Assembly: GCF_009712035.1 (NCBI RefSeq)
Contig: NZ_VILB01000011.1
Span: forward strand, 695,281 to 759,280
Length of the DNA stretch: 64,000 nucleotides
Direction of reading: 5' to 3'
Source: Anabaena sp. UHCC 0187
Lineage (GTDB): Bacteria; Cyanobacteriota; Cyanobacteriia; Cyanobacteriales; Nostocaceae
Under the pieces are notes generated by a model. The model was not told where the DNA came from. It saw only the letters and a program-made list of their open reading frames with translations, and did no database searches. Each line of letters opens with the position of its first letter. Position 1 is the stretch's first letter. Position numbers and translations under genes: made by a program. Of this stretch, positions 1,347-7,301 are shown one piece after another.

Positions 1347-2450
1347 ATGAACACAAATATAGATAATCTTAACTCGGTTCGTCAACCTAAAATTTTCAAC
1401 AAATCAACGAGTTTTGTTGAAGGTTGGTATTGGGTATTACCTTCTCAATCTTTGCTAGTAGGTGAGGTTAAAGCTGTAACTATTTTTGGCAAAGATTTAG
1501 TCGTATATCGTGGTAAAGATAGACGTGCAGTTATTCTAGATGCTTACTGTCCTCACATGGGTACGAGTTTAGCTGAAGGTAAAATTGAGGGTAATGAATT
1601 ACGCTGTGTTTTACATCGGTGGAAATTTGATGCTGAAGGTATTTGTGTTGATATTCCTAACTTAGATGAACCTGTATCCCTGAAAGCCAAAACTTGGCCA
1701 GCAGCCGAACAATATGGGATGATTTGGGTTTGGACTGGGGAAACTCCTCAACAACCTTTACCTTTTGTTTTAGATTGGGAAAATCAAGAATTTGATTTTT
1801 CTCTCGGTTCGCAATTTAGTATTGATTGTCATCCCAATATCTTACTTCTTCAAGGTATTGATACTCAACAAATTAATCTAGTTCATAAATTACCATTAAA
1901 GATGGTTTTGGAGAAACAAGAACTAAATCAAAATGCAATTATTTTTAGCACTATTACTAATATTAATGCTAAGTCATTTTGGCTAAATCTCTACCGGCGA
2001 TTTTTTAATAATTCTCTGATTTACAGTGTTTGTTATTGGTATGGAACAACCTGTATAGTTTCTTTTACTAATGAGTCTACCCATTTACATATAATATTTA
2101 CAACTCGGATATTACCAGGGGGGAAAACGGAAGGACAAACCCTATTGATGTCCAAAAAACGTAAAGGTATTTTAGGAAAATTAACTAATAAATTGATGTT
2201 AAAGCTAGGGAGAAGAATTAGCGATCGCTTACTTAAAACCAATGATAGAATTTTACAAACCATGCAGTTTGATTTAAAAACTCCCCTCAAAGATGATTTA
2301 TCAATTATGCAATTTATCAACCATTTAGAACGACAAAAACCCCTCACATGGCAAACTTGGCTATTAGTACGGTCACGGGAACGGGAAGAAGAAGTGCGTG
2401 AAGAGAGAGAGAAACGCGAAAAATGGCGAGATGAATTAGTTAATGACTAG
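1347..2450 (+). CDS. Rieske [2Fe-2S] oxygenase-like protein with altered mononuclear-iron site
   Basis: The 367-residue protein carries a full Rieske motif: C68-P-H70, then 16 residues, then C87-V-L-H90, which should bind a [2Fe-2S] cluster. This is the architecture of ring-hydroxylating oxygenase alpha subunits and of plant-type PaO/CAO oxygenases. In that family the catalytic domain holds iron with D-x2-H-x4-H. The best match here is D172-T-Q-Q175-I-N-L-V-H180, in which the first histidine is a glutamine. Activity as a normal monooxygenase is therefore uncertain. The C-terminus is a charged tail rich in Arg and Glu (about residues 345-365). No ferredoxin or reductase gene is adjacent. Substrate unknown. 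An ATG start is used; the upstream DNA shows no strong ribosome-binding site. Confidence 0.8.
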   Translation: MNTNIDNLNSVRQPKIFNKSTSFVEGWYWVLPSQSLLVGEVKAVTIFGKDLVVYRGKDRRAVILDAYCPHMGTSLAEGKIEGNELRCVLHRWKFDAEGICVDIPNLDEPVSLKAKTWPAAEQYGMIWVWTGETPQQPLPFVLDWENQEFDFSLGSQFSIDCHPNILLLQGIDTQQINLVHKLPLKMVLEKQELNQNAIIFSTITNINAKSFWLNLYRRFFNNSLIYSVCYWYGTTCIVSFTNESTHLHIIFTTRILPGGKTEGQTLLMSKKRKGILGKLTNKLMLKLGRRISDRLLKTNDRILQTMQFDLKTPLKDDLSIMQFINHLERQKPLTWQTWLLVRSREREEEVREEREKREKWRDELVND

Positions 2451-2840: not shown

Positions 2841-3743
2841 TTATTTGGTCTTGACACTCTGTGGAATGAGGATATTTTTCAGCAATTTAGGAATTTGAGA
2901 GGGACTATCAGCAACGGGAATTTTTGCAGATTCAAAAGCAGCTAATTTACTTTCTGCTGTGCCAAAATTAGCAGAACGGCCAATTACAGTTGCCAAAGTC
3001 CCTGTTTGTTGCCAGTTTTGTGCCGGTGGTGCGTGTCTACCAGCAATATAGGCAATTACAGGTTTATCAATGGCTTCCGTAATATATTGCGCTGCTGCTT
3101 CTTCACTTCCCCCTCCCGGTTGGCCAATTAATACAATTGCTTCTGTGGTGTCATCTTCATCGAGAATTTGTAACCATTGGAGGAATGAAGAACCAACAAT
3201 AGCATCACTACCAATACTGACACTAATTGACTGTCCCAAACCTGCTTTTGTTAATTCCCAAGCTACTTCATAAGTCAGGGTACTGCTACGGCTGACAATT
3301 CCCACAGAACCAGGGATGTAAAATTCGCGTTCATGAGTACCTAGGAGAATTTTGCCAGGAACAATAATTCCTGGACTATTGGGTCCAATAATTAAAGTTT
3401 CACAAGCTTCTGTTTTGCGAAGGAGTTCCACCATATCCAAGGGGGGGACACCAGCCGTAGTAATGATAATTTGGGGAATATTAGAGGCGATCGCTTCTAA
3501 TGCTGCATCCAAAACTTGATAAGGTTGAACACAAATAATTGTGGTGTCAATCTGTCCAAATTTCTCCACAACCTCCTCCACTAAATCAAATACTGGCAAA
3601 TTATACATTTGCTGTCCACCACGCCCAGGATCAACACCAGCTACTAAATTTGTGCCATAAGCTTGCATTTGAGCAATATGAGTTGCTGAGATAAATTCAC
3701 AAAAGCCCTGGATTAAAACTTTACTTTCTGGTGTTAAGTTCAT
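2841..3743 (-). CDS. Succinyl-CoA synthetase alpha-subunit-like protein (SucD homologue, catalytic His absent)
   Basis: The 300-residue protein aligns end to end with SucD. The N-terminal CoA-binding Rossmann domain is present (residues 1-130, including NSPGIIVPG), and the ligase domain follows. The active-site loop of E. coli SucD contains Glu208 in GEIGG and the phosphorylated His246 in GHAGA. Here the matching stretches read GQPGG (Gln208) and QQTGT (Gln246), so both key residues are replaced. The protein should fold and may bind CoA, but the phosphohistidine reaction looks impossible as drawn. It lies 82 bases downstream of the SucC-like gene on the same strand, so the two are very likely co-transcribed. 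The gap between them is filled with heptameric repeats. The family match is strong; a true succinyl-CoA synthetase function is doubtful. Confidence 0.85.
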   Translation of the reverse strand: MNLTPESKVLIQGFCEFISATHIAQMQAYGTNLVAGVDPGRGGQQMYNLPVFDLVEEVVEKFGQIDTTIICVQPYQVLDAALEAIASNIPQIIITTAGVPPLDMVELLRKTEACETLIIGPNSPGIIVPGKILLGTHEREFYIPGSVGIVSRSSTLTYEVAWELTKAGLGQSISVSIGSDAIVGSSFLQWLQILDEDDTTEAIVLIGQPGGGSEEAAAQYITEAIDKPVIAYIAGRHAPPAQNWQQTGTLATVIGRSANFGTAESKLAAFESAKIPVADSPSQIPKLLKNILIPQSVKTK

Positions 3744-3747
3744 AATT

Positions 3748-3824
3748 TGTTAGTTGTCAGTTGTCAGTTGTTAGGTGTTATTGAGTAGTTCAATTTTTAA
3801 TTTTTAATTTTTAATTTTTAATTG
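3748..3824. repeat. Heptameric tandem repeats between the sucC-like and sucD-like genes
   Basis: Two short tandem heptamer runs lie side by side: GTTGTCA units at about 3750-3772 and AATTTTT units (four and a half copies) at 3792-3824. Similar short tandemly repeated repetitive sequences are common between genes of filamentous cyanobacteria. They occupy nearly the whole spacer of this operon. Confidence 0.85.
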
Positions 3825-3825
3825 A

Positions 3826-5064
3826 TTACCTATTCCCTTTTTTAACCACAGGTATCTTCGCTAAACGAACTGCTTCCTTGACTGCTTCATCTAAATTTTC
3901 TACAACTATGATTGTTTGATTAGAGATTTTAAGTGTGGCTAAATATTCTTTGACCTGATTAAATTCAGAACCCGCTAAACGTAAGACTAACCGGGGTAAA
4001 TTTAACTGTTGCTGACTCTTGTTACCATTAGATCCTGACACCGGAGATATAATTTCACTTCTGTCTGATTCGAGAAATTTGGTAATAATTTCTGGAAATT
4101 GGTTAACTTGAGGAATAGTTCCCAAAAAGTTGATGAGAATAACTTGAATACTCCGATCCTCAGCCAAAGTTTTCAAACTGCTTACTAGGCGATCGCTAAA
4201 AGTTGTCGGTGTGGTATCACTCATAAACAAATGGCGCAAATTGATACATTTACCAGGTTTACCACTGGCATTAACAATTGCATCCAATGTTGTTAATACA
4301 GAACCTTTACCATTACCTAAGATTCCAATTTTACCGCCCATTTCCAAGCTATCCCAGTTACCCAACAAACCATTCCTTTTTTTATCACCATCACGACGGA
4401 CGATCATTTTTGCGGCCATGTCGGCTATTTCGGGATGACGGTTAATGGCTCGTTCATTCACCCTGACTTTACCATTGAGAGCCATCACTTGGCCAGCGGA
4501 GTTCACACCCAGAGGATGAATCTCTACTAAGTCCAAATCTTTTTGGATAAATAACTGGTATAGTTTCTCGACAATATCGCTCACAGACTGCATTAATGCC
4601 CCCTGTAAACCCATTTTTAAAGCCAGTCGTCTGGCATAAAATGGAGAAAATTCCTGTTCTACAACTACGTGCTGAATTTTTTCCCCTGCGGTTTCCCATT
4701 CGATATTTGCTTCTTGAGAACCCAACAAAACGGGACGACATAGCGCAGTATCTAAAACTACAGCTAGATAAAACTCCTCTTGGGCATCATACTTTGATTC
4801 TGCCAGTAACACTTCTGGCAATTGTCCCCAAATTGGCAGATTAAATATATTTTGGGCGGCGGCGATCGCATCAATCGTAGTTTCTACAATCCTGACTCCA
4901 CCAGCTTTTTCCCTTTCCCCAGCTTGTACCTGGGATTTCAGCACAATCGGGTAACGAATTTTTAACCGTTTTAAATCTGTAGGATGGTCTATTCTTTGAG
5001 ATGGTAAGACAGGAATCCCGATTTGACCAAACCATTCTTTAACTTGATACTCCAATAAATCCAT
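3826..5064 (-). CDS. Succinyl-CoA synthetase beta-subunit-like protein (SucC homologue, Mg ligands altered)
   Basis: The 412-residue protein starts MDLLEYQVKEWF, typical of the ATP-grasp beta subunit. It keeps the ATP-grasp core (VLKSQVQAGE...KAGGVRIV, residues 41-60) and a C-terminal CoA-ligase flavodoxin-like domain. In E. coli SucC the nucleotide metal is held by Asn199 and Asp213 in EINPL and LDGK. The matching segments here are E181-I-H183-P-L and A-L-N197-G-K, with exactly the same spacing, so Asn becomes His and Asp becomes Asn. The conserved GGIVRCD of the power helix region reads GTIPQVN. Both subunits of the operon are therefore altered at positions that are almost invariant in working enzymes. 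It is transcribed ahead of the SucD-like gene and divergently from the gene at 5412. Confidence 0.85.
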   Translation of the reverse strand: MDLLEYQVKEWFGQIGIPVLPSQRIDHPTDLKRLKIRYPIVLKSQVQAGEREKAGGVRIVETTIDAIAAAQNIFNLPIWGQLPEVLLAESKYDAQEEFYLAVVLDTALCRPVLLGSQEANIEWETAGEKIQHVVVEQEFSPFYARRLALKMGLQGALMQSVSDIVEKLYQLFIQKDLDLVEIHPLGVNSAGQVMALNGKVRVNERAINRHPEIADMAAKMIVRRDGDKKRNGLLGNWDSLEMGGKIGILGNGKGSVLTTLDAIVNASGKPGKCINLRHLFMSDTTPTTFSDRLVSSLKTLAEDRSIQVILINFLGTIPQVNQFPEIITKFLESDRSEIISPVSGSNGNKSQQQLNLPRLVLRLAGSEFNQVKEYLATLKISNQTIIVVENLDEAVKEAVRLAKIPVVKKGNR

Positions 5065-5411: not shown

Positions 5412-7300
5412 ATGAAAGCAACAGTTCAACAAGAAGACTTACAACTTTTAGGCGATATTTTGCAGGAAAGATTAGTGGCGGAAGTGGCTGATAGTCAGGG
5501 TTTCCAGGTGAAATGCGCTGTTAAAAATGATGAATTGATGATTTTAACTCAACACCCTCCTGGGGTGACAGTTGAGACACAGCACGTTTTTGAGGTATTA
5601 GAACAAGCACTACAATGGCAATTTAACTACCAAACTCAACGGGTACAATTTTTCTTGAGAATTTCTGGAGAAAAGCTTCCCTATGCTAAACATTTCCTAG
5701 ATTTTCAGATTCCCAGTGTAGATCAAACTGACCATGGATTTCAGATTCCCACATTAGAGAGAGAAGATGAGATGGAAAGCGGAAATGAGAGAGACACTCT
5801 CTTTGTCCCTTTTGATCTGCAAAAATCATCATCTTCATTTACACAAACAGAAGACGAACCTATTGTTGATTCATTTCTCTCCGATTCTGAAAAACCTTTC
5901 TCAGATTATTCATCACCAGACTCAACTTTATACAATCTATCTCTAGATGAGGATGAATCTGAGGAACTTGAGGCAGTTGAGGAACTTGAGGAAAAGTTTG
6001 ATCCTTTTGCCAATGCCCCAGATAAACCCAAAAAAAGACAGTTATCCCTATCATTTCCGCCTTTACCAATTATTGTTGGTGTGGCTGTAGTTATTGCTCT
6101 CCTTTCTGGTGGTGGTGCTTTCGTTCTCCATCGTGGTTGTGTAATTTCTGAATGTAAAGAATTGCAAATAGCCCAGCAATTTAAGAGTGGGTATCCGCAA
6201 CAGATCAAGCGGACTAAATCGGAACAAGACTTATTAGCATTGCAACAACAACTAGATGCGGTAGTTGCCGATTTGCAAAAAATTCCTCAGTGGTCTCCCC
6301 GTTCTCAAGAATCTCAGTTATTAATTAATAGTTTTTCTGAACAGTCCACAAAAATCAACCAGGTGCTAAAAGCTTTACAAATGGCATCCTCAGTCCAGAA
6401 AACAACTCAAGCACCCGCGAAGAGCTTGGATGAGTTACGCAGTAGACAAAAGTTATGGGGACAGGCAATCACCGCACTAGAGATTATTAAACCTGGGAAT
6501 GAATTCTATGGATTGGTAAAAGCAAATTTACCAAGCTATCAAAATAGTTTAAAGAGTATTAATCAGCAGTTAATTAAAGAAGAAACATGGCTACAAAAAA
6601 TTACCAATGCCAAAACTTTAGGGGAAGACGCTACTAAATTCCAAGCTATTGCTAAATCTCTGGCTGAATGGCAAAAGGTGGAATCTGACTTCCAGACAGC
6701 AATTAGTATCTTAAAAATTATTCCTGTAGATAGTTTAGGAATTGAGGATGCACGCAAATTATTAGCAGATTACCAACCAAAAATCACTGTGGCACGCGAT
6801 CGCGCTAAAAAAGAACAATCATCAGCCACATCCTATCAACAAGCTATTAAAGCCGCCAGTCAAGCCAAAATCTATGGTAATCAAAATCAATGGCAAGGTG
6901 CAGTTAAGGCTTGGGAGCAGGCTGTACAAAGTGCTAAACAAGTGAGTCAAGATACTTTCTATTTCAATCAAGCTAAACCCCTGATTGAAACCTATACAGC
7001 ATCTCTTAAACAGGCACAAGAACAATTCCAACTCTATGGTGATTTAACCCAAACTCGCGCTGAACTCAACACCACTTGTAGTAGTACCATTAGGATTTGT
7101 ACTTTTACCATCGAGAACCAGAAAATTAATGTTCGCTTAACTCCTGAGTATGACCGATTATTTCAAGCTAATAATCCAGAAATACAAAGTCACTTCCAAA
7201 GCTTGCAAGAAGCTCTCAAAGTCATTAGTCAAAATTCTCAACTTCCCGTATTTATCTATAATTCCCAAGGACAGGAACGGTATATGCGGCAGCCGCAGTA

Positions 7301-7301
<1 letters not shown>
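5412..7301 (+). CDS. Single-pass membrane protein with acidic linker and coiled-coil C-terminal domain
   Basis: I do not recognise a named family for this 629-residue protein. Residues 1-110 form a compact, predicted cytoplasmic domain. A Ser/Asp/Glu-rich linker (about 120-200, very acidic at DEDESEELEAVEELEEKFD) follows. A single hydrophobic segment (about 216-240, PIIVGVAVVIALLSGGGAF) is bounded by KPKKR on the inner side. The remaining 390 residues are Gln/Lys-rich and mostly helical, with coiled-coil character, and should lie outside the cytoplasm. Two Cys pairs occur (CVISEC just after the membrane segment; CSSTIRIC near residue 557). The layout looks like a conserved cyanobacterial envelope protein. 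It is flanked by a divergent operon and by heptamer repeats directly after its stop codon. Confidence 0.75.

Follow-up and report, generated by a model that had tools for sequence, protein, structure and literature searches.

Within a 64,000-nucleotide stretch of the genome of Anabaena sp. UHCC 0187 (contig NZ_VILB01000011.1; the whole stretch is hereafter called the window), two adjacent genes encode homologues of SucC and SucD, the beta and alpha subunits of succinyl-coenzyme A (CoA) synthetase. Catalytic residues are replaced in both subunits, yet the pair is under strong purifying selection in Nostocaceae; it therefore probably has a job other than the named one. Our comparison of sequences leans towards a succinyl-CoA synthetase that would have lost its phosphoryl relay and been kept as a pseudo-synthetase acting through binding.

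Replaced catalytic residues in the SucC/SucD-like pair

The source genome (5.1 Mb, 57 contigs) carries the pair at the following positions of the window:

3826..5064, reverse strand: SucC-like beta subunit, 412 amino acids, ATP-grasp (Pfam ATP-grasp_2)
2841..3743, reverse strand: SucD-like alpha subunit, 300 amino acids (Pfam CoA_binding, Ligase_CoA and Succ_CoA_lig)

Homology to succinyl-CoA synthetase spans most of the length of both subunits in Pfam, NCBIfam and HMMER comparisons, the last against solved structures, and the closest structures for both are bacterial succinyl-CoA synthetases. Both proteins fall under the NCBIfam cut-offs, alpha with 278 bits against TIGR01019 (cut-off 353.2) and beta with 177 bits against TIGR01016 (cut-off 375.6). 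The alpha gene lies 82 nt downstream of the beta gene; the intact operon proposed in the initial annotation is likely, but the gap ranges from 39 to 682 nt over 30 Nostocaceae loci (window included). A second, canonical SucCD, which the initial annotation had suggested looking for, was not found in the window genome, and the window pair is the only one found there. A 912-922-amino-acid protein of the same superfamily (L002) serves as an internal control in this genome, since it keeps the His (SHTGAL) as well as the PNC and SQSG motifs when compared with E. coli SucD.

Residues are numbered after E. coli SucC and SucD (NC_000913, locus L094). Across 291 genomes of the phylum, 113 SucD-like places scored above 80 bits, and 89 of them, the window included, were read with their flanks. 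To these we added 80 named loci from among the matches listed (347 relatives confirmed) and 16 further class members, leaving out loci with a BLAST score below 110, or below 90 in the case of these last 16. Betas were taken from loci adjacent to an alpha, and 174 alphas and 146 betas remained after identical rows had been dropped. The labels Nostocaceae, Chroococcales-like and other oxygenic are our own and derive partly from family codes and organism names.

The replaced positions, with their state in distinct Nostocaceae rows, are:

3120..3122, reverse strand: alpha Gln208 for Glu208 (GEIGG to GQPGG); Gln in 43/43
3006..3008, reverse strand: alpha Gln246 for the phosphorylated His246; Gln 38, Glu 2, Asn 1, Thr 1, Lys 1 (n = 43)
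4474..4476, reverse strand: beta Asn197 for the Mg ligand Asp213; Asn in 42/42
4516..4518, reverse strand: beta His183 for the Mg ligand Asn199; Asn 33, His 8, Ser 1 (n = 42)
3696..3701, reverse strand: alpha Cys15-Glu16 for the Thr-Gly of the CoA loop (GFTG to GFCE); Glu at the Gly position in 43/43

We assume here that N199 and D213 bind Mg and that the aligned residues correspond to the CoA and nucleotide sites of the E. coli enzyme. The roles of His246, Glu208 and Glu197 in the mechanism are described in passages of PMC10342173. Alignment confirmed all four replacements listed in the initial annotation (Gln208 and Gln246 in alpha, His183 and Asn197 in beta), and clade-wide conservation holds for Q208 (43/43), for the absence of H246 (0/43 rows with His) and for D213N (42/42); at this last position Asp is present in 103/103 non-Nostocaceae rows of the phylum, likewise in E. 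coli. Such fixation of Q208 and N213 can hardly be due to chance. The second Mg-ligand change did not stand as a family trait: His at N199 is limited to some members of the window's genus and to a single further genus (8/42 betas), which rules out a joint origin with D213N. N199H is no part of the family-wide change.

Changes also affect the residues that align with the CoA site. The E. coli positions T17, G18, K43, E98 and C124 (open reading frame numbering) are kept in 0, 0, 1, 0 and 0 of the 43 Nostocaceae alphas, and the CoA-loop Thr and Gly and Cys123 are each present in 0/43 rows versus 11/11 in non-photosynthetic relatives. In beta, G55, one Gly of the GG motif, is kept in 0/42.

Up to the H246 position the alpha loop aligns without a gap to the sister sequence (AQNWQQTGT in the window, GKHWGHTGT in the sister). 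A conserved His elsewhere, part of what the initial annotation had named as grounds for refutation (His and Glu), was looked for in the Nostocaceae rows and none was found; 26/43 have no His at all in the loop span. His237, in the loop, is His in 23/43 rows, and the sole window His widely conserved in the family is His22 (39/43), which pairs with an E. coli His. Given the sister alignment and this search, misalignment of the loop is unlikely, and sequencing error or a pseudogene as the cause is ruled out by the 43 distinct Nostocaceae sequences together with the substitution rates given below.

Distribution of the losses among cyanobacteria

In a tree of 157 alphas from which the loop columns had been removed, all 43 rows of Nostocaceae group in a single clade (Shimodaira-Hasegawa-like approximate likelihood ratio test, 100), whose sister consists of Gloeocapsopsis, Gloeocapsa and a Chroococcidiopsidaceae metagenome-assembled genome. 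E208 and H246 are kept in 3/3 rows of this sister lineage, and its betas retain GRG, N199 and D213; E208, H246 and D213 are therefore most simply placed as having changed on the Nostocaceae branch.

Beyond this family, H246 is kept in 72/86 other oxygenic alphas, in 11/11 non-photosynthetic relatives and in 0/33 of the Chroococcales-like group, which comprises Synechocystis, Microcystis, Crocosphaera and Picosynechococcus. The betas of this latter group keep N199, D213 and R54 in 26/26 rows each and G55 in 25/26. The coordinated loss in both subunits, which the initial annotation had singled out, is thus real in Nostocaceae and special to them among the rows examined, but elsewhere alpha alone has lost H246. 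Since alpha-only loss occurs in many other cyanobacteria, the deeper story would be one of erosion across oxygenic cyanobacteria. On a 171-row tree the His/no-His state takes 8 unordered changes, or 10 His-less clades if His was never regained, both figures being rough because of weak branches and because two of the clades hold rows gapped at the site. Both trees were quick ones with many weak branches, and the f8 loci L088, L089 and L090 were excluded from the 171-row tree. An attempted collapse of the weak branches in the latter left every figure as it was, which is no measure of robustness.

An almost canonical oxygenic pair, L175 (G301:C15:53800-60700), has GMTG, ITEG, PNCPG, SRSGT, GEIGG, GHAGA, LDGK and LGGI; its PGKGG carries Arg for Lys. 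Of the 242 class genomes, its own is the one (1/242) whose SucD exceeds the TIGR01019 cut-off. L175, in which almost all canonical motifs are present, is a useful candidate for an ancestral-like control. Among the remaining oxygenic rows, 3/86 have the CoA-loop Gly, 52/86 the Thr before it, 46/86 E97 and 21/86 Cys123, and 29/70 keep the second Gly in the GG motif of beta. Of the further pairs scored against NCBIfam, four other oxygenic ones all fell under the cut-off and one non-photosynthetic pair lay well above it. A SucD-like match above 100 bits is missing from 146/242 class genomes, 66 of which have none and 80 weaker ones only; these weaker matches, as far as listed, are frames of about 500 to 1000 codons.

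Some individual loci depart from these patterns. The cyanobacterial SucDs of L107, L108, L166 and L169 keep His246 and have Ser or Lys for Glu208, and L122, L183 and L185 display the opposite order of loss, with Glu kept and His gone (L183 is gapped at the site in the 171-row tree). The SucD-like proteins of L088, L089 and L090 are highly divergent, being 28-34% identical to that of the window across the part matched by BLAST, lack His246 and have no beta that could be found beside the alpha. In the Epithemia diatom endosymbionts L067 (= L103) and L068 (= L104), with genomes of ~2.8 and 3.1 Mb, a His-less alpha is kept, and the adjacent beta has N199 and D213.

Retained residues and selection

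The equivalents of beta K46, R54, E99, E107, E197 and N264 are present in the window as K43, R51, E89, E97, E181 and N251, the first four being kept in 41/41 non-gapped Nostocaceae rows and the last two in 42/42. In alpha, the segments SRSsTLTYE, GPNSPG and GQPGG stay conserved in the family. As many as 134/300 alpha and 117/412 beta columns are invariant in Nostocaceae, so that the invariance of any single column is unremarkable; the pattern that stands out is that Gln208 and Asn213 never vary, next to a position of the former His that does.

The ratio of nonsynonymous to synonymous substitution rates (dN/dS) was obtained by the Nei-Gojobori method (NG86), leaving out named loci and skipping pairs with dS above 2 (71/465 alpha and 154/435 beta pairs in Nostocaceae). 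The Nostocaceae medians, 0.094 for alpha (394 pairs) and 0.143 for beta (280 pairs), lie far below 1 and close to those of the His-keeping family f6, 0.106 (13 pairs) and 0.134 (11 pairs). The median for alpha within the window's genus is 0.087 (36 pairs), and the His-less family f9 gives 0.066 for alpha and 0.041 for beta (1 pair each). Constraint on the Nostocaceae pair is clear, if weaker than in some His-keeping families, and the view that it is maintained rather than decaying was upheld. Loss of catalytic residues under purifying selection, one of the marks of a pseudo-enzyme of the SucCD family, is what we find here.

A SucD-like gene is present in 31/31 Nostocaceae genomes among the matches listed, a figure that depends on the order of that list (45 match-less genomes stand outside it, and those shown start at class level). 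Alpha is readable in 31/31 of these loci and beta in 30/31 (no beta was found on L026; some are cut by the end of the sequence read). On G089 (L030) a single TGA falls close to the end of the alpha match, of which the open frame alone was used.

Metabolic setting and in vivo evidence

No match to 2-oxoglutarate dehydrogenase E1, methylmalonyl-CoA mutase, HTS, the DapD N-domain family or CoA_trans was found in the window genome; as a positive control, searches with these five succinyl-CoA families each matched between 3 and 8 of the 14 control genomes. According to passages of PMC7133116, a decarboxylase and a semialdehyde dehydrogenase turn 2-oxoglutarate into succinate, while the interconversion of succinate and succinyl-CoA, said to be required for methionine and lysine, is 'probably' the work of SucC/SucD; another review takes succinyl-CoA synthetase to be missing and its loss to be compensated (PMC11546870). 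Erosion could have become possible because oxygenic cyanobacteria bypass succinyl-CoA in the citric acid cycle, as we propose.

Published work reports that the SucC/D protein of Synechocystis is detected and falls under light-activated heterotrophy, changing with other enzymes of the tricarboxylic acid (TCA) cycle (PMC9175036), that sucD transcript increases early in the light (PMC4959675) and that sucC and sucD transcripts drop on nitrogen depletion (PMC4295605). The sucD primers of this last study match a Synechocystis salina locus exactly, and the alpha encoded there has Asp at H246.

Deletion of sucCD in Synechococcus (Picosynechococcus) PCC 7002 brought succinate and malate down to about 60%, or to about 40% when cells were kept aerobic in the dark, and growing the mutant under sparging with 2% CO2 proved impossible, as given in passages of PMC5160925. 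In two congeners of this strain, G058 (identified as Picosynechococcus PCC 7117 because the plasmid sequences are identical) and G081, Asp stands at H246 and Arg at E208. The deletion phenotype supports a functional pair and not a non-catalytic one, because its authors explain it by ordinary enzyme activity.

Proposed role and alternative explanations

In the pseudo-synthetase that we favour, the alpha-beta complex would still assemble and, to judge from the residues kept, the beta site would still bind nucleotide. The phosphate of ATP could presumably not pass via His246 to the carboxylate, and no acyl-CoA would be made. The replacement of charged or nucleophilic groups by amides (Gln for Glu, Asn for Asp and, in most rows, Gln for His) would retain the shape of the site without its chemistry. 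Binding of nucleotide, and perhaps of a metabolite or partner protein, might then act on C4-acid metabolism through a regulatory or scaffold complex. More tentatively, we can picture a stepwise and repeated conversion in which the CoA and succinate sites went first, the phosphohistidine next in several lineages, and the amide switch across both subunits followed in Nostocaceae, perhaps leaving a nucleotide-binding, phosphate-inert regulator of the C4-acid/carbon balance. The different job envisaged in the initial annotation survives insofar as the pair is unlikely to perform classical succinyl-CoA synthesis; of the roles suggested there, CoA or acyl-CoA binding is the weakest, because the aligned CoA-site residues have changed while those assigned to the beta nucleotide site are kept.

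Several observations weigh against a non-catalytic pair. In PMC5160925, a quadruple mutant including sucCD had wild-type-like succinate, and the authors ascribe the deletion phenotype to ordinary succinyl-CoA synthetase activity. The H246 state near PCC 7002 is known from two of three congeners, G058 and G081, whose lineage keeps beta N199 and D213; moreover, the residue immediately ahead of the H246 position is His in G081 and Tyr in G058. In Nostocaceae itself, residue 245, right before that position, is His in 6/43 rows (Arg 27, Gln 10). The beta dN/dS of the window's genus is 0.171 (36 pairs), and the His-keeping families f2, at 0.049 and 0.051 for alpha and beta (3 pairs each), and f22, at 0.058 and 0.103 (1 pair each), lie under the Nostocaceae values. 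Finally, the conserved active-site neighbours SRSsTLTYE, GPNSPG and GQPGG could also belong to a live, different catalytic site.

This last point leads to the strongest alternative, a live enzyme of changed chemistry that works without a phosphohistidine, for example by direct acyl-phosphate formation or by acyl or carbamoyl transfer. Besides the conserved surroundings, the fixation of Q208 and N213 without drift speaks for it, as do the intact N199, D213, R54 and G55 of Chroococcales-like betas and the precedent, taken from passages of PMC11326118, of the SucD-like FdrA/AllF recruited into an oxamate transcarbamylase. We nevertheless hold it to be unlikely: the change of D213 to Asn and the loss of G55 argue against phosphoryl transfer in Nostocaceae betas, the variety of residues at H246 (Q, E, N, T, K) shows no new catalytic residue fixed there, and the window SucD scores only 33 bits as FdrA.

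Decay, in which an unneeded enzyme heads for loss with its active site drifting first, would fit the repeated loss of H246, the missing gene in much of the class, the very divergent forms in f8 and f12, the higher dN/dS of the His-less family f5 (alpha 0.179, 13 pairs; beta 0.216, 1 pair) and the Nostocaceae dN/dS above that of f2 and f22. It is improbable for Nostocaceae, where dN/dS is far below 1 and near that of the His-keeping f6, the genes are readable in almost all loci, and Q208 and N213 are invariant.

That the pair is still a succinyl-CoA synthetase, slow or with another residue as phosphate carrier, agrees with its annotation in reviews and models (PMC7133116, again with 'probably'), with the Synechocystis protein that changes along with other TCA enzymes, with the altered succinate and malate of the deletion mutant and with some His in the loop span of 17/43 Nostocaceae rows, but is very doubtful given the want of a conserved substitute His, the additional loss of E208 and D213, the changed CoA-site residues and beta GG motif, and the lack of a match in the window genome to the five succinyl-CoA producer and consumer families searched for.

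Relation to known systems

SucCD of E. coli and Thermus (TIGR01019/TIGR01016) resembles the window pair closely: alpha residues 4-292 and beta residues 1-334 align with 3ufx, the gene order is the same, and the beta nucleotide-site residues and E197 are kept in the window. The window pair differs in the replacement of H246, E208, D213 and N199; residues of the CoA site, C123 and a Gly in the GG motif of beta are changed as well. ATP-citrate lyase and citryl-CoA synthetase, which use a phosphohistidine, belong to the same superfamily and are more distant for alpha (E 8e-29 versus 5e-65 for SucCD). Pat-type protein acetyltransferases contain an acyl-CoA synthetase-like domain of the SucCD superfamily that is said to act by ligand binding and not by catalysis; there the domain is part of a single chain, fused to the acetyltransferase, and the large homologue encoded in the window genome (L002) differs from the window pair in keeping the His. 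FdrA/AllF offers another parallel, being SucD-related and annotated as acyl-CoA synthetase until it proved to do something else, according to passages of PMC11326118; it differs in score, the window SucD reaching 33 bits against an FdrA cut-off of 433 and 278 bits as SucD.

Passages of PMC7133116 and PMC4295605 give SucC/SucD as succinyl-CoA synthetase in Synechocystis metabolism. No report of catalytic-residue loss in cyanobacterial SucCD was found in the titles, abstract starts and passages of the open literature searched (subscription papers lay outside this scope). In the sequences read from the Synechocystis, Microcystis, Crocosphaera and Nostoc groups the mechanism-defining residue is missing and, if our interpretation is true, the reaction would have to be removed from many models, and 31/31 Nostocaceae genomes among the matches listed would carry a pair without known function. 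The intermediates between the nearly canonical oxygenic pair of G301 and the Nostocaceae make the path from enzyme to pseudo-enzyme testable.

Neighbouring genes

The pair is flanked by two genes on the forward strand:

5412..7301, forward strand: 629-amino-acid protein without assigned function, divergent from sucC; no Pfam family above cut-off
1347..2450, forward strand: Rieske-domain protein, convergent with sucD

A homologue of the 629-amino-acid protein lies divergently upstream of sucC in 31/114 loci with at least 900 nt upstream, a set in which some genomes are counted twice; one of these matches is weak (E 3e-4). The loci span Nostocaceae, Chroococcales-like and Oscillatoria-like lineages, and the tie of this protein to SucCD is positional only. 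Since its gene is common to His-keeping and His-less lineages and has no Pfam family, the neighbourhood yields no function for SucCD. By eye, the 629-amino-acid protein has an apparent membrane segment near residue 220. At its C-terminus the Rieske-domain protein passes into a low-complexity tail rich in Glu, Arg and Lys, EEEVREEREKREKWRDE, where the end may have been shifted or extended.

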